From positions 1 to 64,000 of the IMG/VR virus record IMGVR_UViG_3300036770_005754: a DNA stretch of 64,000 nt. One strand, 5' to 3'. The position numbers were made by a program, and so were the translations under genes. Of this stretch, positions 1,770-47,027 are shown piece by piece (position 1 is the first letter of the stretch; every line of letters begins with the position of its first letter). Under the pieces are notes generated by a model. That model did not search any database, was not told the DNA's origin, and worked only from the letters and a program-made list of their open reading frames with translations. This stretch comes from a virus.

Positions 1770-3467
1770 TCATTGACTATTTTTACGTGTTTGCAAAGCT
1801 CTGAGAGCAGCATCTGCGTACACTTGTTCCCACTGTAAACGGTTCACTTTTAAACCCGCTTTTAGAGCACCTATGATCGGATCTTCTGGACTAATACCAA
1901 CAACGTCTTGTGGTAGAGGCGGCAATAATTTGTTCAGATAATAAACGGCCTCTGTTGGAGGTACCAAGTATCCTAGTTCGTAACAAGCTTCAAAAGCACC
2001 GACTTCTCTGTAAACATAATCCCCATAGATGTCTGAAACTCTTGATGAAACTTGAGGTATCGTTAGGCCGCCAGTCACCCTGAAGACCGCATCGCTATAG
2101 TCGTCACGGCCTCTTCTGATTGGTTTCTCGAGGTCTCCCGCATATAAGCCAGCCAATCTATCTAATTGGTCTGGTATCTGATCCGTGCTTGATACGTCTC
2201 CAAAGACATCGAGGAATCCTGACAACATGGTTTGCACTTCATTCTTAAAAGGTTGCAAGCCATCATACGGACCATGGCACCTGATGCAGCTTATAGCGGA
2301 CTGAACCCTACCGGTATGTGGCGGCGGAACAGAGTGGTCTCTCACGATATTTGGAGGTGCTTCGTCTTGTAAAGCACCGTTACCGTCGAACAATGCGAAA
2401 ATATGCAAACCATTGGGTTTAGCAGCTATCGCCTCACGTGCTTGATCTTTAAGATTCAATAGATTTCTTATAGGATCACTACGTGGGTCAACATCGTTAT
2501 CAGATATGTCGTGGGTAATAGTTATCAGCCCAGCACCACTACCTGGTCTTACACCAGAACCATAGAACACATCCACTCTTCTTGGTTTACCAGTAACATT
2601 AGATCTGAACATCGCTGCACGCTGATCCGATCTAAGATCTTCTACCAATTGTTGACTCGCACCAAGAGACTTCAAGAAGGCGTCTTGCGCAGTACCCTCA
2701 GCAGGGTCCCTCTCAATACCAGCAAACCTGTAATATAACCCACCGTCTATAGAGGATAAGGCCTTGACTAAAAAGAAGTCATACCTTGTTACAGCAGCAT
2801 TAGATTGTGCGAGTCCCTGTAATAACACGCCCTGTTCTAGACCAACATGAACACCATATGTGGCGACTCTTTGTATATCGACTTTTATCTCCCTCCTATT
2901 CCAAACATTATTTTCGAGTACAAAAAATTCATTGCCAGGTGCCTTGAAAAACAACTGTTCCTGAAATTTGAAACGCAATGACCCTGGCGGATCATCTAAG
3001 CGAGATTCCACCTGAACAGCACCGATAGGCAATGTGTCAGCAGTTGTCTTAGTGATATGGAAATATGGTTCAAAAGCAAGTTCTTCCCAAAGAGCATGTA
3101 AGTTTGCATATTGCTCTGGTCGTGGCGCTAGCTGCCTGAGATCCCATCTGACGAGTTTCCCATCTGCTACTATCGTTGGTGCTACAAGAACAGTCGCCCT
3201 AGACGCAGACAAGTTCATTACATAATTCATGGCTGATATCTTCTGAGGATCTCCATCTGGGATCCAGATATACCTCTGAAACGGCTGATCTGATATTGGT
3301 AATTGTGATATATCAGCAACAGCGTAAGCTACCGCGTCCGCCGGGGACGGCCCATACTGCATAGTGGTAACTTCTGATATGTCCCTCTGCCACGCTTTTG
3401 AAGTCGGACCGACTAGAGAGAAGTCTTGCATCTGCAATGTTAATAGAAAGCATAAAATTTTGAACAT
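1770..3467 (-). CDS. Large exported protein with a single CxxCH haem motif
   Basis: 565 residues. The start has a GAGGTGG sequence just upstream and a short hydrophobic N terminus (MFKILCFLLTLQM), compatible with a signal peptide though shorter than usual. Most of the protein has no family I can name; it has a mixed alpha/beta composition and many Arg/Asp. Near residue 392 lies SAISCIRCHGPYDGL, a c-type haem attachment site (CIRCH) followed by Gly-Pro, as in cytochrome-containing proteins of environmental bacteria. No second CxxCH is visible. It lies 63 bp upstream of the other cytochrome-like gene on the same strand and is probably transcribed with it, suggesting partners in one envelope function. 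Confidence 0.7.
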   Translation of the reverse strand: MFKILCFLLTLQMQDFSLVGPTSKAWQRDISEVTTMQYGPSPADAVAYAVADISQLPISDQPFQRYIWIPDGDPQKISAMNYVMNLSASRATVLVAPTIVADGKLVRWDLRQLAPRPEQYANLHALWEELAFEPYFHITKTTADTLPIGAVQVESRLDDPPGSLRFKFQEQLFFKAPGNEFFVLENNVWNRREIKVDIQRVATYGVHVGLEQGVLLQGLAQSNAAVTRYDFFLVKALSSIDGGLYYRFAGIERDPAEGTAQDAFLKSLGASQQLVEDLRSDQRAAMFRSNVTGKPRRVDVFYGSGVRPGSGAGLITITHDISDNDVDPRSDPIRNLLNLKDQAREAIAAKPNGLHIFALFDGNGALQDEAPPNIVRDHSVPPPHTGRVQSAISCIRCHGPYDGLQPFKNEVQTMLSGFLDVFGDVSSTDQIPDQLDRLAGLYAGDLEKPIRRGRDDYSDAVFRVTGGLTIPQVSSRVSDIYGDYVYREVGAFEACYELGYLVPPTEAVYYLNKLLPPLPQDVVGISPEDPIIGALKAGLKVNRLQWEQVYADAALRALQTRKNSQ

Positions 3468-8116: not shown

Positions 8117-9793
8117 ATGATTGATTATTCTTTAGCCGTAGTAACTGCATGCACTCCTGATTTCTTGACCGATTTCAATCTTTTTAGTGCATCCCTGCGG
8201 AGGTTTAGTAGTGTCAAATTAATTTTAATCTTGCTAGACTTCGACAATACTCCAAAATTGCCAAACAATATATCTGCTGTTCACATGTCCAAAGAAGAGC
8301 AGAAAACTGCCACAGACATGTTTGGTGATAGGTGGGTACAATGGTATAAACCACACCTGATTCAAATGGCCATCGATCACTTCGGAATAAATGTAGTACT
8401 ATGGTTAGATTGCGATATCATAATTGTTGATGATCCACATGAGATGTTTGACAAAGCTGTTGAAGATTTCTTTGTGGTTGGTGACTATTTTGCGCCTGCC
8501 TCATGTCTAAATGATAATTCGCTGTACGAAGAATTCACTCCGCATCGCGAATTTTCTGCGGAAGAGAACGAATTAGCATTGAACTCCGGCGTGGTGGGCA
8601 TGATGCTCCCACGTGATCAATTTATACTCGACATGTGGAAAAACAAAGTTGAGGTTGTGTCAGAAAGGCCTAACTTAGCCGATAAAGTCAAACTATACGA
8701 TCAGGGTGCATTATTATGGGCAATGCGTGATTTGGATATTCTTGATAAAATTGTCCAAGAACCAAGATTCAACCATAATCCGAAACGTAATGCTTATGAC
8801 GTTGACAAACAATTTGAATGGCCATATGGACCAACACATATGGGTGGCGACATTATAGATCAAGTAGCTTACGACAATCGTGGTGTTGTTGTCGCACACT
8901 TCGCTGGTCTACCTAAACTATCAGACCTAATCAAAATAGACAGTCAACCAGCCAAGCAATTCAGGTATAATAAGCACGGTAAAGATGAGCCAGCACACAT
9001 ATTTGGCGTAGGATTAGAAAGAGCCGGAACGCATACCCTAGCAGAAATGCTCAGAGGGTCATGTAAATATAGCTCTTGGATCAGGCATGAATACAATCCT
9101 GGGATCTCTAGAGCCGCATTGGCTAAGTGGCGTGGTGAACCTTCTGACGGATCTATAGAAGAGCGTTGTGGTGTCTATAACAGGATTGATGTCCAATTCA
9201 TCTCTGAGATCAATCACAGGCTTGGGTTCTTTATCCCAGAGATCAAGAATATGGTTAGAAATTCTAAATTTATATTGCAACTCAGGAATCCATTTGAATT
9301 AGTTAAATCTAGGTTGCGTAATTTTTCATACTTGGATAGTCGAATTAGTAAGTTTCCGATATGTTATCAGTTCGACTCTTATAGTTTGCATAGAGAATTT
9401 CATAATGGCTCTTATGAACAAAATATTTTTAGGATACACCCTGATCATGAGATGTCTGTGATAGAGATGCATGTATGGGAGATTTCCACTACATTAAGAT
9501 TTATCCTGAAAGATCTGAAGGAATTATGCGACTCTGAATATACTATAATATGGCTGGAAGACATATCCAGATCCATCAATAATGTGCGAAGTCTGGTTCC
9601 TAAACATTATTTCGATTGGATAAAAATGCGAGAGATATCGGAAACAAAATATGGTATGAGCAGAAAGCCTACTGGCAGAACAGCCGAGTGGATCAATATG
9701 GAAGTCGAATCACACGCAGAATTTATTTCGGATAGTTTTTTTAATGTTCTTAAAGAGTTCAACATTGATGTGTATGGCAGGGAATTTATATGA
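8117..9793 (+). CDS. Fused glycosyltransferase and sulfotransferase-like protein
   Basis: 558 residues, GGGGG ribosome-binding site five bases before ATG. The N-terminal half (about 1-275) is a GT-A type glycosyltransferase: LWLDCDIIIVDD at 95-108 carries the DxD motif (DCD) that binds metal and the nucleotide-sugar phosphates, followed by ALNSGVVGMMLP typical of transferases that act on surface glycans. The second half starts a P-loop like that of PAPS-dependent sulfotransferases (FGVGLERAGTHTLAEML at about 295-311) and has LQLRNPFELVKSR near 387-399, matching the 3'-phosphate-binding R-N-P segment. Such a fusion would add a sugar and sulfate it. The downstream gene overlaps by ATGA, so the two are translationally coupled. 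The cytoplasm is the likely site. Confidence 0.75.
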   Translation: MIDYSLAVVTACTPDFLTDFNLFSASLRRFSSVKLILILLDFDNTPKLPNNISAVHMSKEEQKTATDMFGDRWVQWYKPHLIQMAIDHFGINVVLWLDCDIIIVDDPHEMFDKAVEDFFVVGDYFAPASCLNDNSLYEEFTPHREFSAEENELALNSGVVGMMLPRDQFILDMWKNKVEVVSERPNLADKVKLYDQGALLWAMRDLDILDKIVQEPRFNHNPKRNAYDVDKQFEWPYGPTHMGGDIIDQVAYDNRGVVVAHFAGLPKLSDLIKIDSQPAKQFRYNKHGKDEPAHIFGVGLERAGTHTLAEMLRGSCKYSSWIRHEYNPGISRAALAKWRGEPSDGSIEERCGVYNRIDVQFISEINHRLGFFIPEIKNMVRNSKFILQLRNPFELVKSRLRNFSYLDSRISKFPICYQFDSYSLHREFHNGSYEQNIFRIHPDHEMSVIEMHVWEISTTLRFILKDLKELCDSEYTIIWLEDISRSINNVRSLVPKHYFDWIKMREISETKYGMSRKPTGRTAEWINMEVESHAEFISDSFFNVLKEFNIDVYGREFI

Positions 9794-22876: not shown

Positions 22877-24343
22877 ATGGAACTCTACCAAACACTAACT
22901 AGAACCATCACCGAAGAAATCGACTATACTAATACACCCCCAGAAATAGTGGATAGGTTGAGACCACTCAAATCACACGAACAAGAATGGGGAATCAGAG
23001 AATACCACAACGGAGAAAACATCGACAATATCCTAGACTCAATAGAAATCTACAACAACAACATAAGAGATAACAGATACAACAGCATACTAGTCAGACA
23101 CAACCGTAACTACAAGAACATATTCAACTACACCTCCAGAATCATCCACAGCGCCCTCACAGAATTTGAAGAACTGAGGGCCCCAAAACCCAGCAACCGC
23201 AAACTCCAAGAATCCCACAGAAACTGGAGCATTGAAGAACCGCCATACTCGGAAATACTAGTTGATAACAACAGATTAAGAATAGTAAAAGTACAAAGGG
23301 CCGATGATACTGGGAAAGCGGCTAAAATAGCCAGCGATATGAGTCACAAATCAGAATGGTGTACGGTTAATGTTGGAAAAGCTGATGACTACCTTAGTAG
23401 GGGTAACCTGTACTTCATTCTACTTGATGGTGAGAAGTATTTATATCATGCCGAAGCCCAACAGTTAATGGATTTTGGGAATAGGCCTTTTAGGATTTCT
23501 GAGGAGGTTTATTATTTACTGTCAGATTATATTCCTGATATTGGTTTATTCATGGAGGATGAGCATAGCGAGATTTATAAGAATGCCGCTATAAAGTATC
23601 CTCTGGTTGCTTGTATGTATGCTCGTGACGTTCTAAGAGGCAGGTGGCCAGAAGCAGAATCAATTATAATGAAGGACCCTTTGGTTGCTTACAATTATGC
23701 TGTTGATACCATTAAAAGTAGATGGTTTGAGGCAGAACCGGCTATAATGAAGTATCCTAAGGCTGCTTGCGTGTATGCTTATAGCGTTCTAAGAGGCAGG
23801 TGGATAGAAGCAGAGCCGATTATAATCCAAGACCCTTGGTCCGCTGCCCATTATACTCATCACGTTCTCAAACGTAGGTGGCCTGGAGCAGAACCGATAA
23901 TAATGAAAGATCCGGATTCTGCTTGTGATTATGCTATTTATGTTCTTAAACGTAGATGGCCAGAAGCAGAACCAAACATAATGAAGAACGCTGGGGCCGC
24001 TACCAATTATGCTATTAATATTCTTGAACGCAGGTGGCTGGAAGTAGAACCAATTATAATGAAGGACCCTTGGTCCGCAAACCACTACGCTAGATATGTT
24101 CTAGAACGAAGGTGGCCTGAGGCAGAACCAATTATAATGAATGATCATTGGGCTGCCTTCTATTATGCTCGGGATGTCCTTAAACGTGAATGGCCAGAAG
24201 CAGAACCAAACATAATGAAAAACCCTGGAGGGGCCCATAGTTATGCTAAATATATTCTTAAACGCAGGTGGCCAGAAGCAGAACCAAACATAATGAAAGA
24301 CCCTAACGCCGCGAAGCATTACAAAGAAGACTTCGATATATGA
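22877..24343 (+). CDS. WCT-domain/RWPEAEP-repeat protein A
   Basis: 488 residues, the largest of four paralogs in the window. Residues 1-240 form a shared N-terminal domain (HEQEWGIREYHNGEN, NPKNI-type NYKNIFNYTSRIIHSAL, then KSEWCTVNVGKADDYLS and LYFILLDGEKYL). The W-C-T followed by a Y-L and an LYFI-L strand resembles a domain I know from large phage genomes, without known function. From residue 242 it has nine 26-residue repeats of the form P-x-x-A-x-x-YA-x-x-VL-x-RRWPEAEP-x-IMKD and a tenth partial, probably a helical solenoid. The first 450 bases are A/C-rich and the rest G/T-rich, a sharp internal change. It overlaps the next paralog by ATGA. Confidence 0.75.
   Translation: MELYQTLTRTITEEIDYTNTPPEIVDRLRPLKSHEQEWGIREYHNGENIDNILDSIEIYNNNIRDNRYNSILVRHNRNYKNIFNYTSRIIHSALTEFEELRAPKPSNRKLQESHRNWSIEEPPYSEILVDNNRLRIVKVQRADDTGKAAKIASDMSHKSEWCTVNVGKADDYLSRGNLYFILLDGEKYLYHAEAQQLMDFGNRPFRISEEVYYLLSDYIPDIGLFMEDEHSEIYKNAAIKYPLVACMYARDVLRGRWPEAESIIMKDPLVAYNYAVDTIKSRWFEAEPAIMKYPKAACVYAYSVLRGRWIEAEPIIIQDPWSAAHYTHHVLKRRWPGAEPIIMKDPDSACDYAIYVLKRRWPEAEPNIMKNAGAATNYAINILERRWLEVEPIIMKDPWSANHYARYVLERRWPEAEPIIMNDHWAAFYYARDVLKREWPEAEPNIMKNPGGAHSYAKYILKRRWPEAEPNIMKDPNAAKHYKEDFDI
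23600..24301 (+). repeat. Nine tandem 78-bp coding repeats (26 residues each)
   Basis: Nine in-frame units of 78 bp inside paralog A, followed by a 13-residue partial unit. The most constant core is RWPEAEP-x-IMK. Units have diverged in DNA sequence, so this array is not very recent as a whole, but neighbouring units are close enough for slippage or unequal recombination. Confidence 0.85.
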
Positions 24344-25482
24344 AACTGTGCCAAATACTAACCAGAACCCTCACCGAAGAAATAGACTACACCAACATAC
24401 CCCCAGAAATAGCAGACAGACTAAAACCACTCAAACCACACGAACAAGAATGGGGAATCAGAGAATACCACAACGGAGAAACCATAAACAACATCCTAGA
24501 TTCCATAGAAATCTACAACAATAACATAAAAGACAACAGATACAGCAGCATACTAGCCAGACACAACCCCAACTACAAGAACATATTCAACTACACCTCC
24601 AGGATAATCCACAGCGCCCTCACAGAATTTGAAGAACTAAGGGCACCAAAACCCAGCAACCGCAAACTCCAAGAATCCCGCAAGAACTGGAGTATTGAAG
24701 AACCACCATACTCAGAAATCCTAGTCAACAATAATAGGTTAAGAGTAATAAAAGTCAAGAGAGTCGATGATACTGGGAAAGCTGCTAAAATAGCTAATGA
24801 CATGAGCCACAAGTCAGAATGGTGCACAGTCAATGTCGAAAAAGCAGATCATTACCTTGGCAGGGATGATTTGTACTTCATTCTGCTTGATGGTGAGAAG
24901 TACTTGTGCCATATCAAGTCTAAACAACTGATGGATTTTTGGAATAGGCCTTTTAGGATTTCCGAGGAGCTTTACCATTTACTATCAGATTATGTCCCTG
25001 ATATTGGTTTATTCATCAAGGACAAACATAGTGAGATTTACAAGAATATTGTTATAAAGCACCCTAAGGCTGCTTACGATTATGCTTCACGTGTTCTTGG
25101 ACGTAGATGGCCCGAGGCAGAACCAACCATAATCAAGGACCCTTTTATCGCTTATAGTTATGCTCGATATGTTCTAGATCGTCGATGGCCAGAAGCAGAA
25201 CCAATCATAATGAGGGACGCTAAGGCCGCTGCCTATTATGCTCATCATGTTCTAGATCGTCGCTCCGTTGCCAGGTCGAGAATCCGCAGCCGGTGGCTCG
25301 AGGCAGAACCAATCATAATGAATGACCCTTGGGCTGCCGCCTATTATGCTATTTATGTTCTAGAACGTAGGTGGCCAGAAGTAGAACCGATGATAATGAA
25401 AGACCATAATGCTGCGAAACAGTACAAGGAGTTCTTCGGCATGCCTGGATGCTGTGAGTCATGCGAACAGTGGCTTTACTAA
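24340..25482 (+). CDS. WCT-domain/RWPEAEP-repeat protein B
   Basis: 380 residues, a paralog of A with very high similarity in the N-terminal 240 residues (IDYTNIPPEIADRLKPL, KSEWCTVNVEKADHYL, LYFILLDGEKYL). It has only four 26-residue repeats (from 25063) plus a C-terminal tail with several Cys (GCCESCEQ). The third repeat carries a 10-residue GC-rich insert (25264-25293, SVARSRIRSR), absent from all other units. It starts in the stop of gene A (ATGA), so A and B are translated together. Function unknown. Confidence 0.7.
   Translation: MKLCQILTRTLTEEIDYTNIPPEIADRLKPLKPHEQEWGIREYHNGETINNILDSIEIYNNNIKDNRYSSILARHNPNYKNIFNYTSRIIHSALTEFEELRAPKPSNRKLQESRKNWSIEEPPYSEILVNNNRLRVIKVKRVDDTGKAAKIANDMSHKSEWCTVNVEKADHYLGRDDLYFILLDGEKYLCHIKSKQLMDFWNRPFRISEELYHLLSDYVPDIGLFIKDKHSEIYKNIVIKHPKAAYDYASRVLGRRWPEAEPTIIKDPFIAYSYARYVLDRRWPEAEPIIMRDAKAAAYYAHHVLDRRSVARSRIRSRWLEAEPIIMNDPWAAAYYAIYVLERRWPEVEPMIMKDHNAAKQYKEFFGMPGCCESCEQWLY
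25063..25404 (+). repeat. Four 78-bp coding repeats, one with a 30-bp insertion
   Basis: Units at 25063, 25141, 25219 (108 bp because of the insertion at 25264-25293) and 25327. The insertion is in frame and contains more G and C than its surroundings, unlike any repeat unit. Confidence 0.8.
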
Positions 25483-25530: not shown

Positions 25531-27288
25531 TTAGCCTTGCCAACTATCACCATTATAAAACATAAGCCTAGTACCATTATACCAAAAATCACCAAATTTA
25601 GGATCTCTACCTAATAGAATTCTCAACCTTGGTAATACGTCGTTGTTGTAAGTAGTAGGGTTGTCACCTAGAGTGTCTGCGGAAACGGTCATTTTGACAC
25701 AACGGTGAGCCAGAGCGCCTGTATAACCATATTTATCTATAGAAGAATTTGGCACAATCCCGACCACTGACTCTAAGTCAATTTGATTACCTAATCCTTG
25801 GTCCTGCTCTGTGATATACCTATTAGAATCGCTAGGGTAGATAGGCACACTCAATCTTGCCGTACTACCGACCATAGCTCTTGATTCGCCGATTGTAGGA
25901 ATATATTTCGGGACTCTACTGATGCCAAAGGAACTTATTCTAGTCGAAGATTTGGAAAATTCGGTGTCGATAGGTGATCCAACAATCGAATCAAAAGAAT
26001 CAAAGAATTGATCTATATCGTTTGTAAATTTGTCCCATAAGCTTGATAAAACAACATGACCGCGTCCGAAATGCTGGTTGAAACTAGATGATGAGCCGCC
26101 GGTAATCAACTTTAGGTTGTTAGAAGGTACTATCTCAATTATCTCGCCGTCAGTAAAACTTCTGGTTAGATCTAAAGTCGCAAATTCAATTATTGCAGTG
26201 CTTGGAGAACCACCAACTTCTGAATCTGTTACATTGTATGTGGCGAAAAACATCCTCAATTCGTTGGTACCAGTTCCGATTCTCTCTATTCTGGAAACCC
26301 ATACAGGGAAAAAGGTGCCGCTCGAATCGCCGGTAGGATTGTCTCCAGCAGGAGCAACTATGTCGAATTCTCTAAACAAACCAGCGGGAATAACTATATT
26401 ATCAATTGAAGTCCTTGATGCTTTCGCATCAAAAGGATAATTGAACGATACTAGCCAAGATTGGTTGTCACTATCTAATTGTGGTATAGCATTCCATGCA
26501 CTATCTGTTAATAGACCAGTACCATGTGATAAAGATGATTCTGAAAAATCGTCTGTTACATTAGTACCACCAGGTACTGTGTCGATTATCTCGTAAATCG
26601 CAGGAAAATCATATAAACCATCAGAATTGCTGTCAGTCACATTCCCAGGAGGTGCTAGCAAATTCAGGAAATCTCTGACAATCTCGTCGTTCGTATCAAG
26701 TGTCCTAAAAGTGATGAATCCGGTAACAGTTTCAGACTCAGTTGGACTTATGACTATAGTCTCTTCGATAGCATCAACTACCTGCAATCTCAAATACTGA
26801 TAAGTCAATGCACTATCGATTTTGTAATCTGCGTAGAATATCGCCACTTCTACTGAAGAATTCTCAACGTTCCCGGTGAATATGAGTCTAAGGTCGCCTG
26901 TATACCCATTAGTCACATTATTCTCGCCCGACATCCTTTTTATCTTTGCCAATCTGAGATTCTCCCATTTCTTCGGTAGCGAAGCATGGAAATCCCATAT
27001 GAACTTTGGAGGTATTTCTTCATATCCTGCATTCGAAGCGACGATCGGAGATACTAAAAATGGGAATAGGTTCTCCTTGCCGATCGCTAGTTGAAGGACA
27101 TCAACTGCTTTTGCAAGGACAAGCTGTCTGACGGCTAAGTCAGCTATCGGCCTATTCAAAACTTCATAGAATGCTGGGTCGACAGCAGTCAACCATCTAA
27201 TATTCAGAGTTGGGTCTCCACCCGTGAGACTACTGAATAGCGTTCCTGGTGATTTTGTCGGGACTTTGGCTGGTGTGATAGTAGGAAT
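25531..27288 (-). CDS. Predicted virion protein starting at an ATT codon
   Basis: 585 residues if translation begins at the ATT at 27288, which has AAGGAG eight bases upstream. The same frame has no ATG near its start, only a TTG at 27192 without a ribosome-binding site. The N terminus would be MPTITPAKVPTKSPGTLF followed by AVDPAFYEVLNRPIADLAV. The protein is large, acidic, beta-rich and Ser/Thr/Asn-rich, with a C-terminal FGDFWYNGTRLMFYNGDSW segment resembling the W-Y-N-G modules of phage fibre proteins. Neighbouring minus-strand genes (to 32619) look like virion genes. Exact role unknown. Confidence 0.65.
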   Translation of the reverse strand: MPTITPAKVPTKSPGTLFSSLTGGDPTLNIRWLTAVDPAFYEVLNRPIADLAVRQLVLAKAVDVLQLAIGKENLFPFLVSPIVASNAGYEEIPPKFIWDFHASLPKKWENLRLAKIKRMSGENNVTNGYTGDLRLIFTGNVENSSVEVAIFYADYKIDSALTYQYLRLQVVDAIEETIVISPTESETVTGFITFRTLDTNDEIVRDFLNLLAPPGNVTDSNSDGLYDFPAIYEIIDTVPGGTNVTDDFSESSLSHGTGLLTDSAWNAIPQLDSDNQSWLVSFNYPFDAKASRTSIDNIVIPAGLFREFDIVAPAGDNPTGDSSGTFFPVWVSRIERIGTGTNELRMFFATYNVTDSEVGGSPSTAIIEFATLDLTRSFTDGEIIEIVPSNNLKLITGGSSSSFNQHFGRGHVVLSSLWDKFTNDIDQFFDSFDSIVGSPIDTEFSKSSTRISSFGISRVPKYIPTIGESRAMVGSTARLSVPIYPSDSNRYITEQDQGLGNQIDLESVVGIVPNSSIDKYGYTGALAHRCVKMTVSADTLGDNPTTYNNDVLPRLRILLGRDPKFGDFWYNGTRLMFYNGDSWQG

Positions 27289-27332: not shown

Positions 27333-28247
27333 TTAAATTAGAGTAAAATCAGAAACTCCATTGCCGTCTATCCGAATCTGACTCAAGTCCTCAATGCCTG
27401 TGATCGTAATAGTGTGTTTGCCACCAGGATTTGATGGGTTCGGGTTCGATGGATTTGGATTGTTTGGTTTAGAAGCTGGACTGCCGTACAGTCTTTGAAT
27501 TCTAGGTATGTCGTCATTCTGTTGCGGTTTAGTAATACCGGCTGAATAATATGGAGCCATCAGTGCTCTCTGTGCAGAAGAATGATCTAGGCCAAGGAAG
27601 TGGCCGAATTCATGACAGGCTACATTCAGTAAGAGTATACCGCGATCTTTGGGACTCGTGACCCAGGTCTCTCCTAAATCGAATCGCATTAATAACTGGC
27701 CATTATAGTTGTTGTTCGGCGGTAAGTACGCCCAAGCCAATGTCCCGCCAGGGCCATCGAAATTACTTTGCCTACCAGAACCTGTCGAGATTATCATATT
27801 GGCTGAGTTTTTTGAAGCAACCCTAGTAATTTTAAGGTCGCAATTATCTTCCCATTGCTGATAAGCTAAGTCAAGAATATCATCTTGATCTTTTTTAGGT
27901 AATCCTGGAATATATTGTTCTACGAAATACGTCAATTGTTTCAGACCCCATCTCGAGCCCTGTGAAGCTGATGATCTCACATAGTCTGGACACCCACACC
28001 TCGGCCACCTCATGGCTCTCACAGTCTGCTCATCCAGCTTTCCAGTCTGTGGTAAACTAAACATCTCTTGAAATTTCAGAATTGATTGTGATATATCAGC
28101 ATGTAACATGCTCTTCTTCTTATCGCTGATATAATAATAATCCAGATACTGGATCGCAAAATTGCTGTCAGAATCGCTGATATTGTTGTCGCCTGCAACT
28201 TGCTTGACAAGAGTATTGGTTACTCTCGCAATCAACTGGTCACTCAT
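27333..28247 (-). CDS. Matrixin (matrix metalloprotease-like) with cysteine switch
   Basis: 304 residues, GGAG six bases before ATG. The order matches a secreted vertebrate-type matrix metalloprotease proform: a peptidoglycan-binding-like helical domain (about 30-76, ILKFQEMFSLPQTGKLDEQT), then PRCGCPD at 82-88, the cysteine-switch motif in which Cys84 keeps the zinc site shut, then the catalytic domain with HEFGHFLGLDH at 212-222 (three His ligands and Glu213) and a Met-turn around Met230 (ALMAPYY). A Pro/Asn/Ser linker (NPNPSNPNPSNPGG) and a short C-terminal domain follow. No signal peptide is visible, so release by lysis or virion incorporation is likely. It probably cleaves host extracellular or envelope protein. 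Overlaps the upstream secreted gene by 8 bases. Confidence 0.9.
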   Translation of the reverse strand: MSDQLIARVTNTLVKQVAGDNNISDSDSNFAIQYLDYYYISDKKKSMLHADISQSILKFQEMFSLPQTGKLDEQTVRAMRWPRCGCPDYVRSSASQGSRWGLKQLTYFVEQYIPGLPKKDQDDILDLAYQQWEDNCDLKITRVASKNSANMIISTGSGRQSNFDGPGGTLAWAYLPPNNNYNGQLLMRFDLGETWVTSPKDRGILLLNVACHEFGHFLGLDHSSAQRALMAPYYSAGITKPQQNDDIPRIQRLYGSPASKPNNPNPSNPNPSNPGGKHTITITGIEDLSQIRIDGNGVSDFTLI

Positions 28248-28626
28248 TGCTGTCTCCGATATTTGTTAGCACTACAGAACCGTTTTGATCTATCCTGAAT
28301 GACCAATCTACCACACCAAGATAAGTTTTCGTGACTGTGGCTGTGGCTGCGGCTGTTTTGGACTTCTGAGTATTCATAGGTATATACCCACCAGTATTAT
28401 CGGCGAACCTGAATTGTCGCCATCTTACTGGTGGTAGACTGTTATCCCTGACGCCGCGTAATGGTAGATCAAGGGGGTCGACACCATGATCCGAGCCAGA
28501 GCCATGATTAATCGCCTGCAATGACACTATCCTGTTTACGACCATCGGTGTGTTGAGGTGACTTTTCACATAGTCACCAGAGATAGCCGTATTGATTGTC
28601 ATCATCAATATCAAGAAATATTTCAT
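28240..28626 (-). CDS. Small secreted protein upstream of the matrixin
   Basis: 128 residues. Residues 1-17 form a signal peptide (MKYFLILMMTINTAISG-DY). The mature part has a Pro/Arg-rich centre (LPLRGVRDNSLPPVRWRQF) and a C-terminal beta-like segment (LGVVDWSFRIDQNGSVVL). The matrixin's own C terminus also ends in an R-I-D-G-N-G-V segment, so the two may share a small C-terminal module. It begins one base after the previous stop and overlaps the matrixin start, suggesting one co-translated unit. Confidence 0.65.
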   Translation of the reverse strand: MKYFLILMMTINTAISGDYVKSHLNTPMVVNRIVSLQAINHGSGSDHGVDPLDLPLRGVRDNSLPPVRWRQFRFADNTGGYIPMNTQKSKTAAATATVTKTYLGVVDWSFRIDQNGSVVLTNIGDSNE

Positions 28627-28627
28627 A

Positions 28628-28957
28628 TCATTTTGCCCAGTGGTTGGTTATTTTAGATTTGCGAATCACGACGTTGTTCGAGATGAATGGACTAGGTTGA
28701 TTAATTGCCGCATATTCTGAAAATGGACTCTTGTAGCTATCGCCAATTTGCGGCAGTGGGCCCATATTTTGATTGAAATTGAATGGTCTAGTCTTTAATG
28801 GTGCGACAGCCATAGGTGGCCTATCTATTTTAAGAGGCTTCAAATTCACCGGCATTATTAGATTATTGATAACATTCGTATTGTTGACGACTTTAACCTC
28901 ATGGTCTCCAGCTACCGCTGCTGCAGCCATGATCATAAATATTAATATAGTTTTCAT
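28628..28957 (-). CDS. Small secreted protein of unknown function
   Basis: 109 residues from the Met with GAGG nine bases upstream (an ATG at 28972 lacks it). The signal peptide is clear: MKTILIFMIMAAAAVAG. The mature protein is Asn/Pro-rich with VVNNTNVINNLIMPVN and no Cys. It precedes the other small secreted gene and the matrixin, forming a three-gene export or lysis-released group inside a virion region. No family recognised. Confidence 0.65.
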   Translation of the reverse strand: MKTILIFMIMAAAAVAGDHEVKVVNNTNVINNLIMPVNLKPLKIDRPPMAVAPLKTRPFNFNQNMGPLPQIGDSYKSPFSEYAAINQPSPFISNNVVIRKSKITNHWAK

Positions 28958-28968
28958 TTTAAACATCC

Positions 28969-30036
28969 TCAATTAAAGATTATCCGCCACCTGACGACGA
29001 TTTCGAAGTCCTCTGATTTTTTGACAGGCGTTTTTAGAATCCTATGTGAAAAAATCTTAAAACCGTCTCTAAGAATGCCGATTGGACCAACCAACGGAAT
29101 ATTATCACCATCAACTGGGACTCTGTCGACGACAATATCATGCCCGCCTGGTGCTTTGTTTATCACTAGATAATATGGGTTTAATTGGTTCAATGTATCA
29201 TCATCAGAGATCGTCACGTCTCTTGCAACAATCTTTATTTGGTCGCCTTCTTTGATCAAGTCTGGGTTCATGACTGACGGGTCTAAGGAAACTGTGGTTG
29301 CACCACTGGCGGATGCTGGTAAAGACACGCCATTCTCACCAGTCATAAATATTTCACGGGGTGGGCACTCACAACTGCCGACATTTCCGATCTCAGCCGC
29401 ACCAACCAGTGCTACCTCCGTTATTGTAAAGAAGTCTCCTGACGTTATGCCGAAACCATTGTATTCACTTTTGAGTAATGTCGTCTCGAAGACTACTATG
29501 TTGTTGACAGCTCTGATATCATCCTGCAATAGGGGCGTACCAGAAGGCTGGTAACTGCTCTCAAAGAATATTCTCTCTATTCTTTTGAGAGGTCTAGTTG
29601 GCTCTGAGATAGGTATCGGATTTATGAGATCTCCACCATATTCGGCACCCACACCTAATGTAACAGGAATTGAACCACCACTTATGGAGTCGACTATATA
29701 AAATCTTTCGTCAGTCGAGTCTAACGGATTACCATCTTCTCCGAACGAAGCACCAAACACGATGTATTTGGCAGCGAACTCGTCTATATCAATATCGTGC
29801 GTTACCCAATCGCCTGCACCACCATTGGCATTTATGTCCCAAACTTTGTGGTATGGTAGCCTATGTGAGATCATTTCTTTGGCGAAAATTTTGATAATAT
29901 TAGGTTGATATATTGTGTTTATTATTCTGCCATGTTTGTCTTTTATTATGAATTCAATTTCACCTTTATAGGTACGTATCTTGTGCCCATTTGCATCTGA
30001 GCCAAGCCCATATTGATCTTGCAATTTTGCTTTCAT
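28969..30036 (-). CDS. Predicted virion (tail or baseplate) protein
   Basis: 355 residues. It begins with a short helix and beta-rich segments (GEIEFIIKDKHGRIINTI) and contains a long loop-rich middle with WDINANGGAGDW, CECPPREIFMTG and VSLDPS; it ends with a beta strand pair (EDFEIVVRWRIIFN). This composition and the V-V-R-W-R-I ending resemble large structural proteins encoded beside phage tail genes, but I cannot name a family. It overlaps the secreted-protein start at its end. Confidence 0.6.
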   Translation of the reverse strand: MKAKLQDQYGLGSDANGHKIRTYKGEIEFIIKDKHGRIINTIYQPNIIKIFAKEMISHRLPYHKVWDINANGGAGDWVTHDIDIDEFAAKYIVFGASFGEDGNPLDSTDERFYIVDSISGGSIPVTLGVGAEYGGDLINPIPISEPTRPLKRIERIFFESSYQPSGTPLLQDDIRAVNNIVVFETTLLKSEYNGFGITSGDFFTITEVALVGAAEIGNVGSCECPPREIFMTGENGVSLPASASGATTVSLDPSVMNPDLIKEGDQIKIVARDVTISDDDTLNQLNPYYLVINKAPGGHDIVVDRVPVDGDNIPLVGPIGILRDGFKIFSHRILKTPVKKSEDFEIVVRWRIIFN

Positions 30037-32771: not shown

Positions 32772-34028
32772 ATGAGACATTTGATGATAATAGCACTACT
32801 AGTGACGTCCATCAGCAATGCCGAAGCATGTCCGTTCAGAAGATCACGATGTAGAACTCTCAATAGGAGTCAGTGTCAAATAGTATACAGGAGCCGATGC
32901 CAGGTTGGGTTCATAATCAGAGAATCCTCAGAACCACAAGTTCAACAGCAGATCGATGTGTCGCGAGTAAATGAACCGCGGATTGAGATATTGCAGGAAG
33001 ATGCAGTACAAGCAGAACTAGAAGAAATCACTAGTGAATCAGGCCCACCCGCACCATCCTTGGAATTGGTAAAGTCAAGCGAAGATGAAGAAGCATACCC
33101 GAAATCCACTTTCAAATTAACAGACACTCTCGATTTCAATCTTTGCACAAAAAAGATAGATTTATCGAAGCTAGAAGCAGTTAAAGCTTTCCAAGAAGAA
33201 ACGCCAGCAGTTAGCTTATCTGGCTTGGGGCAAGTAAAGGCGTCCAATACTGAATTATCTGTAGCCGCAGCGCCTAAAACAGTGAAGCAAGAAAATGACT
33301 TCGCACTAACAGACGAATCTCCAGCAGACGAATACCCATCCCCAGCTTCTAATATATTCGGTGCTGAAATAGAATATAACGTAGGTGACCTGATAGAATT
33401 ATCTGTAGAACCAGCAGATAAGCCAAATGGTTTAATCTCTGTTGACTATACTTGGACTGTATTGCCGAATGTGGCGTCGAGAGTATGGCCAGATAAAACA
33501 AAAATTTTGTTTGGCACGGGCTCTAAAAGCCTAACATACGTCGTAATCCTAAACACATCATATGTCTTCGGAGAAAGAGATCCGCAAGGTAATATTGAGA
33601 GTGTAGTACAAAAAACGTCCGTTACTATGGCGAATGTGAGAGTAGGCGGCGGCACCTCTGAGACATCACCAAACAATCTATCAGGTCTCTCTAGATTGGC
33701 ATATGAATGGACATATGAAGTCACGAAAACTGAGAACTATGACAAATCACGATTAATGGCAGATGCAGGTAAGCTATCAGAGTCATTTAAGACCATAGCC
33801 AATGAAATTCAGAGCGGAGCATTAACCGACGTTGGATCAATAATAAGAAGAACGAAAGAGAATAACGACGCCACAATAGAGAATAGAAATGAATGGCTAC
33901 CATGGTTTACTAGGATGTCTGAACACCTGCAAGTATCATACAACAATGGAACTATCAGGGACATAGATGATTTCAACAAGGCATGGCTTGAAATATCAAA
34001 AGGTCTAGAAACGGCAGCAAAAGGATGA
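32772..34028 (+). CDS. Secreted protein of unknown function, 418 residues
   Basis: AGGAGG lies at good spacing before the ATG. Residues 1-19 form a signal peptide (MRHLMIIALLVTSISNAEA-C), and the mature protein starts with a Cys/Arg-rich stretch (CPFRRSRCRTLNRSQC) that could form disulfides. An acidic low-complexity middle follows, then a beta-sandwich-like segment (GDLIELSVEPADKPNGLISV, DYTWTVLP) similar in style to Ig-like/PKD-like domains, and a helical end. Such extracytoplasmic proteins are frequent in planctomycetes. It is followed by a tiny membrane peptide and a glycosyltransferase. Confidence 0.65.
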   Translation: MRHLMIIALLVTSISNAEACPFRRSRCRTLNRSQCQIVYRSRCQVGFIIRESSEPQVQQQIDVSRVNEPRIEILQEDAVQAELEEITSESGPPAPSLELVKSSEDEEAYPKSTFKLTDTLDFNLCTKKIDLSKLEAVKAFQEETPAVSLSGLGQVKASNTELSVAAAPKTVKQENDFALTDESPADEYPSPASNIFGAEIEYNVGDLIELSVEPADKPNGLISVDYTWTVLPNVASRVWPDKTKILFGTGSKSLTYVVILNTSYVFGERDPQGNIESVVQKTSVTMANVRVGGGTSETSPNNLSGLSRLAYEWTYEVTKTENYDKSRLMADAGKLSESFKTIANEIQSGALTDVGSIIRRTKENNDATIENRNEWLPWFTRMSEHLQVSYNNGTIRDIDDFNKAWLEISKGLETAAKG

Positions 34029-41127: not shown

Positions 41128-42294
41128 TCAGAGTTCTTCTGGCAACTTGAAGTACGCTCTATACAGCTTTGCGGTCCAAGGGTCCTTCATTATTGTTGGT
41201 TCTGCTTCTTGCCATCTACGTCCAAGAACATATCGAGCATAACTATAAGCGATAATAGGTTGATTCATTATTACCGGCTCCGCTTCTGGCCATCTGCGTT
41301 TAAGGGCTTTTTCAGCGTAATTGGCAGCAGATCGAGGGTCTTGGATTATGGTTGGCTCTGCTTCTGGCCATTCACGTTTAAGAATATAACAGGCATAGGC
41401 AGAAGCAGCCGTGGGGTTCTTTACTATGATCGGTTCTGCTTCTGGCCATCTGCGTTTAAGAACACTAATGGTGTATAAGAACACAGCCTCTGGATCCTTC
41501 AGTATAATTGGTTCTACCTCAGGCCACTCACGTTTAAGAACATGCCGAGCATAATCACAAGCAGCCTGGGGATGCTTGATCATAGCATTCTTATAAATCT
41601 CGCTGTGCTTATCCTTCATGAATAAACCAACATCAGGCACATAATCTGATAGTAAATAGTAAACCCCCTCCGAAATCCTAAAAGGCCTATTCCTAAAATC
41701 CATCAGCTGATTAGATTGTATGTGACACAAGTACTTCTTACCATCAAGCAGAATGAAGTACAGATCATCCTTGCCAAGGTAATCATCTGCTATTTCGACA
41801 TTGACTGTGCACCATTCGGTTTTGTTGCTTATGTCACTGGCTATTTTAGCAGCTTTGCCAGTATCGTCGACTCTCTGTACTTTTATTATTCTTAGTCTAT
41901 TATTATTGACTAGGATTTCTGAGTATGGTGGTTCTTCAATACTCCAGTTCCTGCGGGATTCTTGGAGTTTTCTATTGCTGGGTTTTGGTGCCCTTAGTTC
42001 TTCAAATTCTGTGAGGGCGCTGTGTATTATTCTGGAGGTGTAGTTGAATATGTTTTTATAGTTGGGGTTGTGTCTGGCTAGGATTTTACTGTATCTGTTG
42101 TCTCTTATATTATTATTGTATATGGCGATTGAGTCTAGGATGTTGTTGATGTTTTCTCCGTTGTGATATTCTTTGATTCCCCATTCTTGTTCGTGTGGTT
42201 TGAGTGGTTTTAGTCTTTCCGCTATTTCTGGGGGTATGTTAGTGTAGTCTATTCCTTCGGTGAGGGTTCTGGTTAGTATTTGGCAGAGTTTCAT
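41128..42294 (-). CDS. WCT-domain/RWPEAEP-repeat protein C
   Basis: 388 residues, a paralog of the pair at 22.9-25.5 kb but on the opposite strand. The N-terminal 240 residues contain HEQEWGIKEYHNGEN, NYKNIFNYTSRIIHSAL, KTEWCTVNVEIADDYL and LYFILLDGKKYL. Five 26-residue repeats follow (41182-41571) and the protein ends FKLPEEL. As in A, the first third of the coding strand is A/C-rich, the rest G/T-rich. It begins in the stop of gene D (ATGA). Function unknown. Confidence 0.7.
   Translation of the reverse strand: MKLCQILTRTLTEGIDYTNIPPEIAERLKPLKPHEQEWGIKEYHNGENINNILDSIAIYNNNIRDNRYSKILARHNPNYKNIFNYTSRIIHSALTEFEELRAPKPSNRKLQESRRNWSIEEPPYSEILVNNNRLRIIKVQRVDDTGKAAKIASDISNKTEWCTVNVEIADDYLGKDDLYFILLDGKKYLCHIQSNQLMDFRNRPFRISEGVYYLLSDYVPDVGLFMKDKHSEIYKNAMIKHPQAACDYARHVLKREWPEVEPIILKDPEAVFLYTISVLKRRWPEAEPIIVKNPTAASAYACYILKREWPEAEPTIIQDPRSAANYAEKALKRRWPEAEPVIMNQPIIAYSYARYVLGRRWQEAEPTIMKDPWTAKLYRAYFKLPEEL
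41182..41571 (-). repeat. Five tandem 78-bp coding repeats in paralog C
   Basis: Five in-frame 26-residue units (core RW/EWPEAEP) with a final 17-residue partial unit and tail. Units are diverged from each other. Confidence 0.8.
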
Positions 42295-43439
42295 ATGTTG
42301 AAGTGTTCCTTATACTCGTATGCGGCATTAGGGTCTTTCATTATGTTTGGTTCTACTTCTGGCCATCTATGTCCAAGAACATGAATAGCATAATAGGCGG
42401 CAGCCCAAGGGTTTTTTATTATGTTTGGCTCTGCTTCTGGCCATCTACGTTTAAGAACATGAATAGCGTATTGCGTAGCAGTCCAGGGGTCCTTCATTAT
42501 GGTTGGTTCTGCTTCTGGCCATGTATTTTTAATAACCTGCCAAGCGTACCAATTAGCAATAGCACTCTTCATTATGATCGACTCTGCTTCTGGCCACCTA
42601 CGTTTAAGAACATGCTTAGCGTACTCAGAAGCAGCATAAGGGTCCTTCATTATGATCGGCTCTGCTTCTGGCCACCTACGTTTAAGAACATGCTTAGCGT
42701 ACTCAGAAGCAGCATAAGGGTCCTTCATTATAGTATTCTTATAAATCTCGCTGTCGATCCACACGAATAAACCAACATCAGGCACATAATCTGACAACAA
42801 ATAATAAACCTCCTCAGAAATCATAAAAGACTCATTCCAGAAATCCATTAGTTGTTTAGATTGTATGTGACACAAGTACTTCTCACCATCAAGCAGAATG
42901 AAGTACAGATCATCCTTGCCAAGGTAATCATCTGCTTTCTCGACATTGACTGTGCACCATTCGGTTTTGTGACTCATATCGCTAGCTATTTTAGCCGCTT
43001 TACCAGTATCGTCGACTCTCTGTACTTTTATTATTCTTAGTCTATTATTATTGACTAGGATTTCTGAGTATGGTGGTTCTTCAATACTCCAGTTCCTGCG
43101 GGATTCTTGGAGTTTGCGATTGCTGGGTTTTGGTACCCTTAGTTCTTCAAATTCTGTGAGGGCACTGTGTATTATTCTGGAGGTGTAGTTGAATATGTTT
43201 TTATAGTTGGGGTTGTGTCTGGCTAGTATGCTGCTGTATCTGTTGTCTTTTATGTTGTCATTGTATATGGCGATTGAGTCTAGGATGTTGTTGATTGTTT
43301 CTCCGTTGTGGTATTCTTTGATTCCCCATTCTTGTTCGTGTGGTTTGAGTGGTTTTAGTCTTTCCGCTATTTCTGGGGGTATGTTGGTGTAGTCGATTCC
43401 CTCGGTGAGGGTTCTGGTTAGTATTTGGCAGAGTTTCAT
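42291..43439 (-). CDS. WCT-domain/RWPEAEP-repeat protein D
   Basis: 382 residues, the fourth paralog. The N-terminal domain is nearly the same as in C (KTEWCTVNVEKADDYL, LYFILLDGEKYL). It has five repeat units (42333-42719): the first two, each starting PYAASEYAKHVLKRRW, derive from a very recent 78-bp duplication with over 70 identical bases; the third unit is one residue short. It is coupled to C by a 4-base overlap and is preceded closely by the HTH/methylase-like gene. Function unknown. Confidence 0.7.
   Translation of the reverse strand: MKLCQILTRTLTEGIDYTNIPPEIAERLKPLKPHEQEWGIKEYHNGETINNILDSIAIYNDNIKDNRYSSILARHNPNYKNIFNYTSRIIHSALTEFEELRVPKPSNRKLQESRRNWSIEEPPYSEILVNNNRLRIIKVQRVDDTGKAAKIASDMSHKTEWCTVNVEKADDYLGKDDLYFILLDGEKYLCHIQSKQLMDFWNESFMISEEVYYLLSDYVPDVGLFVWIDSEIYKNTIMKDPYAASEYAKHVLKRRWPEAEPIIMKDPYAASEYAKHVLKRRWPEAESIIMKSAIANWYAWQVIKNTWPEAEPTIMKDPWTATQYAIHVLKRRWPEAEPNIIKNPWAAAYYAIHVLGHRWPEVEPNIMKDPNAAYEYKEHFNI
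42333..42719 (-). repeat. Five coding repeats including a recent 78-bp tandem duplication
   Basis: Units of 78 bp (one of 75). Copies beginning at 42583 and 42661 on the plus strand are identical over at least 71 bases, showing a recent duplication; the remaining units are diverged. Confidence 0.85.
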
Positions 43440-46079: not shown

Positions 46080-47027
46080 TTACAGCCGCTTCAAGTATTT
46101 TCTTGTGTTTTCCTCAGCCATCTTTTTTAAAATACTATGTTGATATTCAGCAACACCGTATCTTGAGGCCGATAGAAATTCGTCGTCCAATGTCGTATTG
46201 CACTGGATGGGATCGTCTGTACCAAGAGTCAATCTTAGGCCATTGTTTAGCATCTTGGTCACTGGATGCTCATCTCTGCCTACTACACCTGTAAAAAAAT
46301 TGCTAGTTATCCCCAGATCGAATGTTATGTCGTTATCTATGGCTGCAGATATGATATCTGGTTCTTCGCATATCTTTATACCATGTGCTATGTTTGTTAC
46401 TTTCATCACCGTTATCGCCTCATATGCGTTCATTGCAGTCTGTGATTCTGCGACATGTGCTCTGGTCATTTTACCTGCATTGTTCCACTCTGCGAATATT
46501 GGTCGATAGAATTCTGCGTCGAAATATGCTTCATCGCCAACTAAATCTATTCCAAATAATATTTCAGCGATTTCTGGATCTTCTATTAGTTTTGAATATT
46601 GCTTCTGACCGGCTCTCATACTCTCGTATTTCAATGATAATATTAATCCGACTTTACCAGGTATATGTTGTTGAAATGAATGATATATGAATTTGACCGC
46701 ATCCTTCTTCGACCACTTCATCTGGTGCATGTACTTGTTGATTGAAAAATCTAGCCATACGAAATCTAAGCTATCTCGATTAATCTCTTTTGCTATTGAT
46801 TCTATTGAACTATCTATTAACTCTTCGTCCCATATTATTTCGTCTAATATTTTGAATTTGTCTAAGAACCTATAGAAATTACGTGGTTCATCATGGCCAT
46901 AGACCATAGTCTTTTTGACATCATCATATGTCTCTGCGAGATAATACCAACCACGGCGTTGTATTGTCTCCCATACCCATGCCGGTGGTATGCTTCCGCC
47001 TAAGTGTCGGTGTGTATCAATTCTCAT
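46080..47027 (-). CDS. Adenosine deaminase family protein
   Basis: 315 residues. It has the metal-site pattern of the adenosine/AMP deaminase family: DTHRHLGGS at 4-12 (two His), GIDLVGDE, RAHVAES around 190 (catalytic-type Glu region), NIAHGIKI near 215 and LTLGTDDP near 268 (Asp pair). These supply the zinc ligands and acid/base residues. It probably converts a (deoxy)adenosine nucleoside or nucleotide to the inosine form; the exact substrate cannot be read. It lies among a thymidylate kinase and a Nudix hydrolase, so a role in nucleotide pool control is likely. Normal length for the family. Confidence 0.85.
   Translation of the reverse strand: MRIDTHRHLGGSIPPAWVWETIQRRGWYYLAETYDDVKKTMVYGHDEPRNFYRFLDKFKILDEIIWDEELIDSSIESIAKEINRDSLDFVWLDFSINKYMHQMKWSKKDAVKFIYHSFQQHIPGKVGLILSLKYESMRAGQKQYSKLIEDPEIAEILFGIDLVGDEAYFDAEFYRPIFAEWNNAGKMTRAHVAESQTAMNAYEAITVMKVTNIAHGIKICEEPDIISAAIDNDITFDLGITSNFFTGVVGRDEHPVTKMLNNGLRLTLGTDDPIQCNTTLDDEFLSASRYGVAEYQHSILKKMAEENTRKYLKRL

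Follow-up and report, generated by a model that had tools for sequence, protein, structure and literature searches.

A predicted latent matrixin with a double-cysteine switch encoded by a contractile-tailed phage

Latency imposed by a cysteine switch is a textbook feature of animal matrix metalloproteases (MMPs), in which proteolysis of the linker is a route of activation. The vertebrate proMMPs (MMP-1, -3, -7, -9 and -10; M10A) present, in this order, a prodomain, the motif PRCGxPD, the zinc site HExxHxxGxxH and a Met-turn. Bacterial proMMPs likewise join a prodomain and a switch to a matrixin, and their occurrence in Nannocystis, Streptomyces, Herbidospora and Frankia extends the layout beyond animals and plants; in the nine bacterial switches examined, position x is taken by V, I, F or N and never by C. 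Karilysin, a bacterial MMP, has its latency based on an aspartate switch (PMC6949598). Matrixins are also borne by insect viruses (granulovirus, ascovirus, nudivirus, iridovirus), and matrixin zinc sites are found embedded in structural proteins of phages, the tape measure proteins. No paper describing a phage matrixin with a cysteine switch was found in a literature search of incomplete coverage.

The gene described here lies in the window, that is, the whole analysed stretch of 64,000 nucleotides (positions 1 to 64,000 of IMG/VR record IMGVR_UViG_3300036770_005754), which belongs to a record of 176,558 bases. The record encodes a tail sheath (6e-82), a portal (2e-66), a major head protein (1e-81), a baseplate wedge, a ribonucleotide reductase and a DnaB helicase. 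The tail sheath, portal, head and baseplate wedge genes identify it as a contractile-tailed phage, so that the phage origin put forward in the original prediction stands, and these tailed-phage hallmarks ruled out a eukaryotic virus as the source. As the capsid protein is nearest (40%) to that of a 595-kb uncultured phage, and contigs of up to 408 kb share the flanking genes of the protease, the 176-kb record probably represents part of a large (huge-phage) genome.

Domain order and predicted structure

The gene starts with the ATG at 28247 and stops at 27333-27335 on the minus strand, a strand that the original prediction had not given; the plus-strand frame across 27333-28247 is full of stops, leaving an open frame on the minus strand only. 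Most relatives also have a good Shine-Dalgarno sequence ahead of the start, and the gene shares 8 bp with the preceding one, which encodes a 128-aa protein. The features of gene and protein are the following.

28253 to 28257, minus strand: Shine-Dalgarno GGAGA, 5 nt upstream of the matrixin ATG, from the sequence
27333 to 28247, minus strand: predicted latent matrixin (proMMP-like) gene, 304 aa, from ORF call, Pfam and fold match
28011 to 28139, minus strand: Pfam-matched part (PF01471) of the PGB-like prodomain, residues 37-79, helical in the AlphaFold model
27984 to 28004, minus strand: putative double-cysteine switch PRCGCPD, residues 82-88, with Cys84 at the zinc-binding position and Cys86 as the extra cysteine
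27483 to 27953, minus strand: matrixin catalytic domain (PF00413), residues 99-255
27582 to 27614, minus strand: zinc site HEFGHFLGLDH, residues 212-222, with His and Glu invariant across the family alignment
27546 to 27566, minus strand: Met-turn ALMAPYY (Met230), with the Met column kept across the family alignment
27420 to 27482, minus strand: Pro/Asn/Ser-rich linker, residues 256-276, pLDDT <50 over 265-278
27336 to 27419, minus strand: C-terminal beta-type tail of 28 residues, conserved in the two nearest phages

Pfam assigned Peptidase_M10 (PF00413) to residues 99-255 (E=7e-33; full profile, 1-159 of 159; score 114 bits, cut-off 24) and PG_binding_1 (PF01471) to residues 37-79 (E=5.5e-6). 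The extended zinc motif HExxHxxGxxH is present as HEFGHFLGLDHS at residues 212-223, and a phmmer search of the PDB aligned residues 27-269 collinearly with human proMMP-1 (1su3; E=5e-37). The zinc motif, the Met-turn, the profile score and the predicted fold all identify the 304-aa protein as a matrixin, and, judged from the sequence, the succession of PGB-like prodomain, PRCGCPD, Peptidase_M10, zinc site and Met-turn is far beyond chance. The proMMP layout claimed in the original prediction is thus borne out by Pfam, phmmer and the fold matches; its numbering of Cys84 agrees with the position of PRCGCPD at residues 82-88, and no signal peptide was found, as it had stated.

The AlphaFold model, zinc-free and built from 24 sequences, has a pLDDT of 85 and a pTM of 0.76. 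The comparison with proMMP structures that had been proposed put zymogens first: the 20 best PDB fold matches are all proMMPs (MMP-10, -3, -9, -1 and -7), and the Foldseek match to 9csx has E=8e-20 and a TM score of 0.84 by target length. Sequence and model together point to a zymogen architecture with Cys84 in the latent position of the proMMPs. The linker behind the switch appears flexible, with pLDDT <50 over residues 88-95 of the model, and its length varies from 9 to 31 residues across the 24-row family alignment.

The vertebrate proMMPs, which are the best fold matches, are 36-37% identical to the protein over ~235 aligned positions. The phage protein differs from them in having neither signal peptide nor hemopexin domain, in carrying Cys at position x, in sitting in another clade and in missing the structural-zinc ligands (LAWA...MRFD in the place of LAHA...HFD of human MMP-1). 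Since these ligands and the signal peptide are absent and the clade is another, the protein is not assigned to the MMPs of the vertebrate type. Identity to the bacterial proMMPs is ~30-35%, with the best relatives at ~35%; those of Nannocystis, Streptomyces and Frankia keep structural-zinc histidines of the LAHA/H[FY]D type, unlike the phage clade. Karilysin (fold match 2xs3) has the matrixin catalytic domain in common with the phage protein and differs in its kind of switch. The insect-virus MMPs are the nearest BFVD fold matches; they come from viruses that infect animals, are ~20-26% identical and were left out of the tree.

Viral relatives and gene neighbourhood

No relative of the 304-aa protein was found by a single-protein scan of viral contigs or by tblastn against 50,697 phage genomes (INPHARED, GenBank phages), and PHROGs has no family for it. 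The relatives in IMG/VR were found by a DNA pattern of the zinc motif followed by an alignment search, which gave 51 loci. Those with the switch lie on ~20 other viral contigs of up to 408 kb, and the switch without a signal peptide occurs in ~24 distinct viral proteins; mean column identity of the 24-row family alignment is 36%. The earlier statement that bacterial and viral proMMPs are few is corrected for the bacteria, in which switch-bearing proteins occur (Nannocystis, Streptomyces and Frankia). In two contigs (L290 and L291, contigs of L144 and L145) the profile search runs the protease frame through two TGA codons, possibly recoding or an alignment run-on.

In the catalytic-domain tree 44 viral rows fall on one side of a branch and the bacterial and human rows on the other (92/98), with two very-long-branch viral rows (L014, L171) placed elsewhere or at the edge of the group and two human MMPs only taken into the trees. 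With further bacterial rows added, one of them on a very long branch, the same branch had values of 57/76. The viral group takes in both the switch-bearing matrixins without signal and those bearing signals. On these trees the 304-aa protein is assigned to a phage-specific matrixin clade, apart from the bacterial and human proteins. Phylogeny had been named as a check against unrelated metzincins without a switch, and it did not refute the prediction, the closest relatives found being carriers of the switch.

Cys84 is present in all 24 aligned family members and Cys86 in 17 of the 24; five phage members keep Cys84 and replace Cys86 by F, H, R, V or L. Of 28 distinct viral switches, 20 carry a second cysteine (RC[GSA]C), against none of nine bacterial ones. 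Histidine at either of the two scored structural-zinc positions was found in none of 44 viral-clade sequences, and both positions are His in 13 bacterial sequences. The apparent phage-specific clade, the usual CxC double cysteine and the predicted loss of the structural zinc site had all escaped the original prediction.

The viral matrixins are of two types, those without signal, mostly with PGB prodomain and switch, and those exported by Tat or Sec without PGB domain. The exported ones (L041, L015, L162, L087 and others) belong to the same viral catalytic-domain group and have likewise lost the structural-zinc histidines, but carry a signal sequence and no CxC switch. CxC was found in 20/27 signal-less viral rows and in 0/16 exported ones, counts that are not corrected for relatedness, the exported forms being mostly of one clade; a plug that guards the cytoplasm would be expected to give this distribution. 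Tat-like (twin-arginine) signals were seen on L041, L015, L049, L162, L054, L087 and others, and four of the viral matrixins with a Tat signal keep a switch-like C-G motif directly after it.

The genes around the protease are the following.

25531 to 27192, minus strand: 553-aa lineage-conserved protein, one flank of the insertion
28240 to 28626, minus strand: 128-aa protein with signal peptide, overlapping the start of the protease; L130 and L131 encode partly similar proteins in the corresponding position
28628 to 28972, minus strand: 114-aa protein with signal peptide
28969 to 30036, minus strand: 355-aa lineage-conserved protein, the other flank, found at 14 viral loci
32772 to 34028, plus strand: secreted-type protein; in L148 a relative carries a fused matrixin domain

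The protease and the small signal-peptide genes lie between the 355-aa and 553-aa genes in the record and in its two closest relatives, L130 and L131; in L265 and L279 the 355-aa and 553-aa genes are adjacent or nearly so. The protease gene is present in three phages of the lineage, and its profile had no match in 13 related records, several of which are fragments. Hence, with the flanks (nearly) adjacent in L265 and L279 and those 13 records without a match, the matrixin gene is accessory in this phage lineage. The original prediction had placed it next to virion and secreted genes; the secreted-type neighbours are there, and the flanks are lineage-conserved proteins, none a proven virion protein. 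The model of the 355-aa protein is of low confidence and its fold matches are uninformative.

Other observations were made at these loci. L148 encodes, at 8270-9613 (plus strand), a single protein with a signal peptide, an Ig-like region and a switch-less matrixin, adjoined by a second, signal-less matrixin with the switch KRCGVAD. An opposite-strand gene stands beside the protease in L130 (9659-9955, minus strand) and L131 (9676-10014, minus strand) and is missing at the site in the window; the L130 product matches a CxxCxxCC metal-chelating family (PF03692). The window also holds tandem genes for secreted c-type-cytochrome-like proteins (855-1706 and 1770-3467, both minus strand; motifs CVACH and SCIRCH), the first barely at the Pfam cut-off for PSCyt1 (planctomycete cytochrome c); CxxCH is invariant in 7/7 relatives of the SCIRCH-type gene, and related pairs adjoin the protease gene in L133, L141, L142 and L143. 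In a host search, relatives of these partner genes were found in 6/246 Planctomycetota-sample genomes and 7/189 Myxococcota-sample genomes. Repeat proteins that are paralogues of one another, with repeats of the RWPEAEPIIMKDP type and a common N-terminus, are encoded at 22877-25482 (plus strand), at 41128-43439 (minus strand) and at ~103-107 kb of the record. A phage-borne adenosine deaminase gene is present at 46080-47027 (minus strand; PF00962, E=9e-31), and in L130 too.

Proposed latency, activation and targets

The reading that is tentatively favoured, with doubt still slightly outweighing confidence, is that of a latent matrixin made in the cytoplasm, released from the cell or carried in the virion, activated outside by oxidation, by cleavage of the linker or by both, and cutting surface proteins. 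With Cys84 in the zymogen arrangement of the proMMPs, the PGB-like prodomain would present it to the catalytic zinc and the enzyme should be made inactive. Synthesis would take place in the host cytoplasm, given the missing signal peptide, and the reducing conditions there may hold the plug closed, sparing phage and host proteins. The enzyme would leave this compartment when the cell lyses, or else from the virion in the following round of infection. A potential of -167 mV, close to the value for protein disulfide isomerase, is reported for the disulfide of a CGC triad (PMC4316792). Formation of such a bond between Cys84 and Cys86 (Cys-Gly-Cys) could pull Cys84 from the zinc and so activate the enzyme. 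A CGC disulfide of this potential would be reduced in the bacterial cytoplasm; thus, at -167 mV, the plug is expected to stay reduced inside the cell and could oxidise outside. A cut in the flexible linker behind the switch may serve as an alternative or additional opening. The active enzyme might then cleave a protein at the surface (S-layer, pili, receptor or matrix) of the host or of neighbouring cells, which would aid entry or spread; protein surface layers or matrix are a natural guess for the substrates. The stricter form, in which the Cys-Gly-Cys plug of the phage-specific clade is a redox-gated safety catch that the disulfide opens at lysis or within the virion and that needs no protease for activation, is possible but unlikely, and the phage members without Cys86 indicate that release by a disulfide is not the sole activation route.

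The alternative of a virion-borne entry protease, anchored to tail or baseplate and cutting a protein layer at adsorption or injection as tail-borne peptidoglycan hydrolases do, is plausible, although doubtful. In a second lineage (L132, L134-L138, L140) the matrixin gene comes immediately after Baseplate_J (PF04865, E=2e-11; phrog_6, E=6e-21), and zinc sites of matrixins lie inside the tape measure proteins of Arthrobacter phage Shambre1 (gp17; L336:226-3858) and of L095 (4020-8636), the latter together with M23 and SLT cell-wall enzyme domains, so that a matrixin can form part of a tail protein. The Pro-rich linker and the C-terminal tail would suit such an anchor. However, the identified tail and head genes of the record are tens of kilobases from the protease gene, the flanking genes have no assigned function, and the tail peptide, searched against the fetched viral proteins, matched only the three nearest proteases, which does not support a shared virion-docking tag.

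Activation by proteolysis only, through a cut of the linker by host or prey proteases or by autolysis and with a second cysteine devoid of redox role, is somewhat unlikely. The long and variable linker and the family members without Cys86 agree with it, and the mammalian zymogens with PRCGXPD provide the model (PMC6949598), but it leaves unexplained why Cys at x is common in phages and absent from the bacterial switches seen. An intracellular enzyme, processing phage structural proteins or degrading a host defence protein during infection, would fit the missing signal peptide and is nevertheless improbable: the 13 related records (several being fragments) without a match make an assembly role unlikely, and in a reducing cytoplasm the switch would keep the zinc blocked, which speaks against activity at that site. 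A peptidoglycan-targeted lysin is very improbable despite the PF01471 match, as the protein matches proMMP zymogens over its whole length, and a cell-wall anchor role of the PGB domain was rejected, this fold being the usual proMMP prodomain.

Cysteine-switch latency thus recurs in what appears to be a phage-only branch, many of the phages having large genomes and some carrying the gene beside baseplate genes, with the switch recurrently altered by a second cysteine and the structural zinc lost. If the redox reading is true, it would provide a simple self-activating latency device for enzymes made in the cytoplasm and acting outside, and protein layers would be indicated as targets in phage entry or spread.
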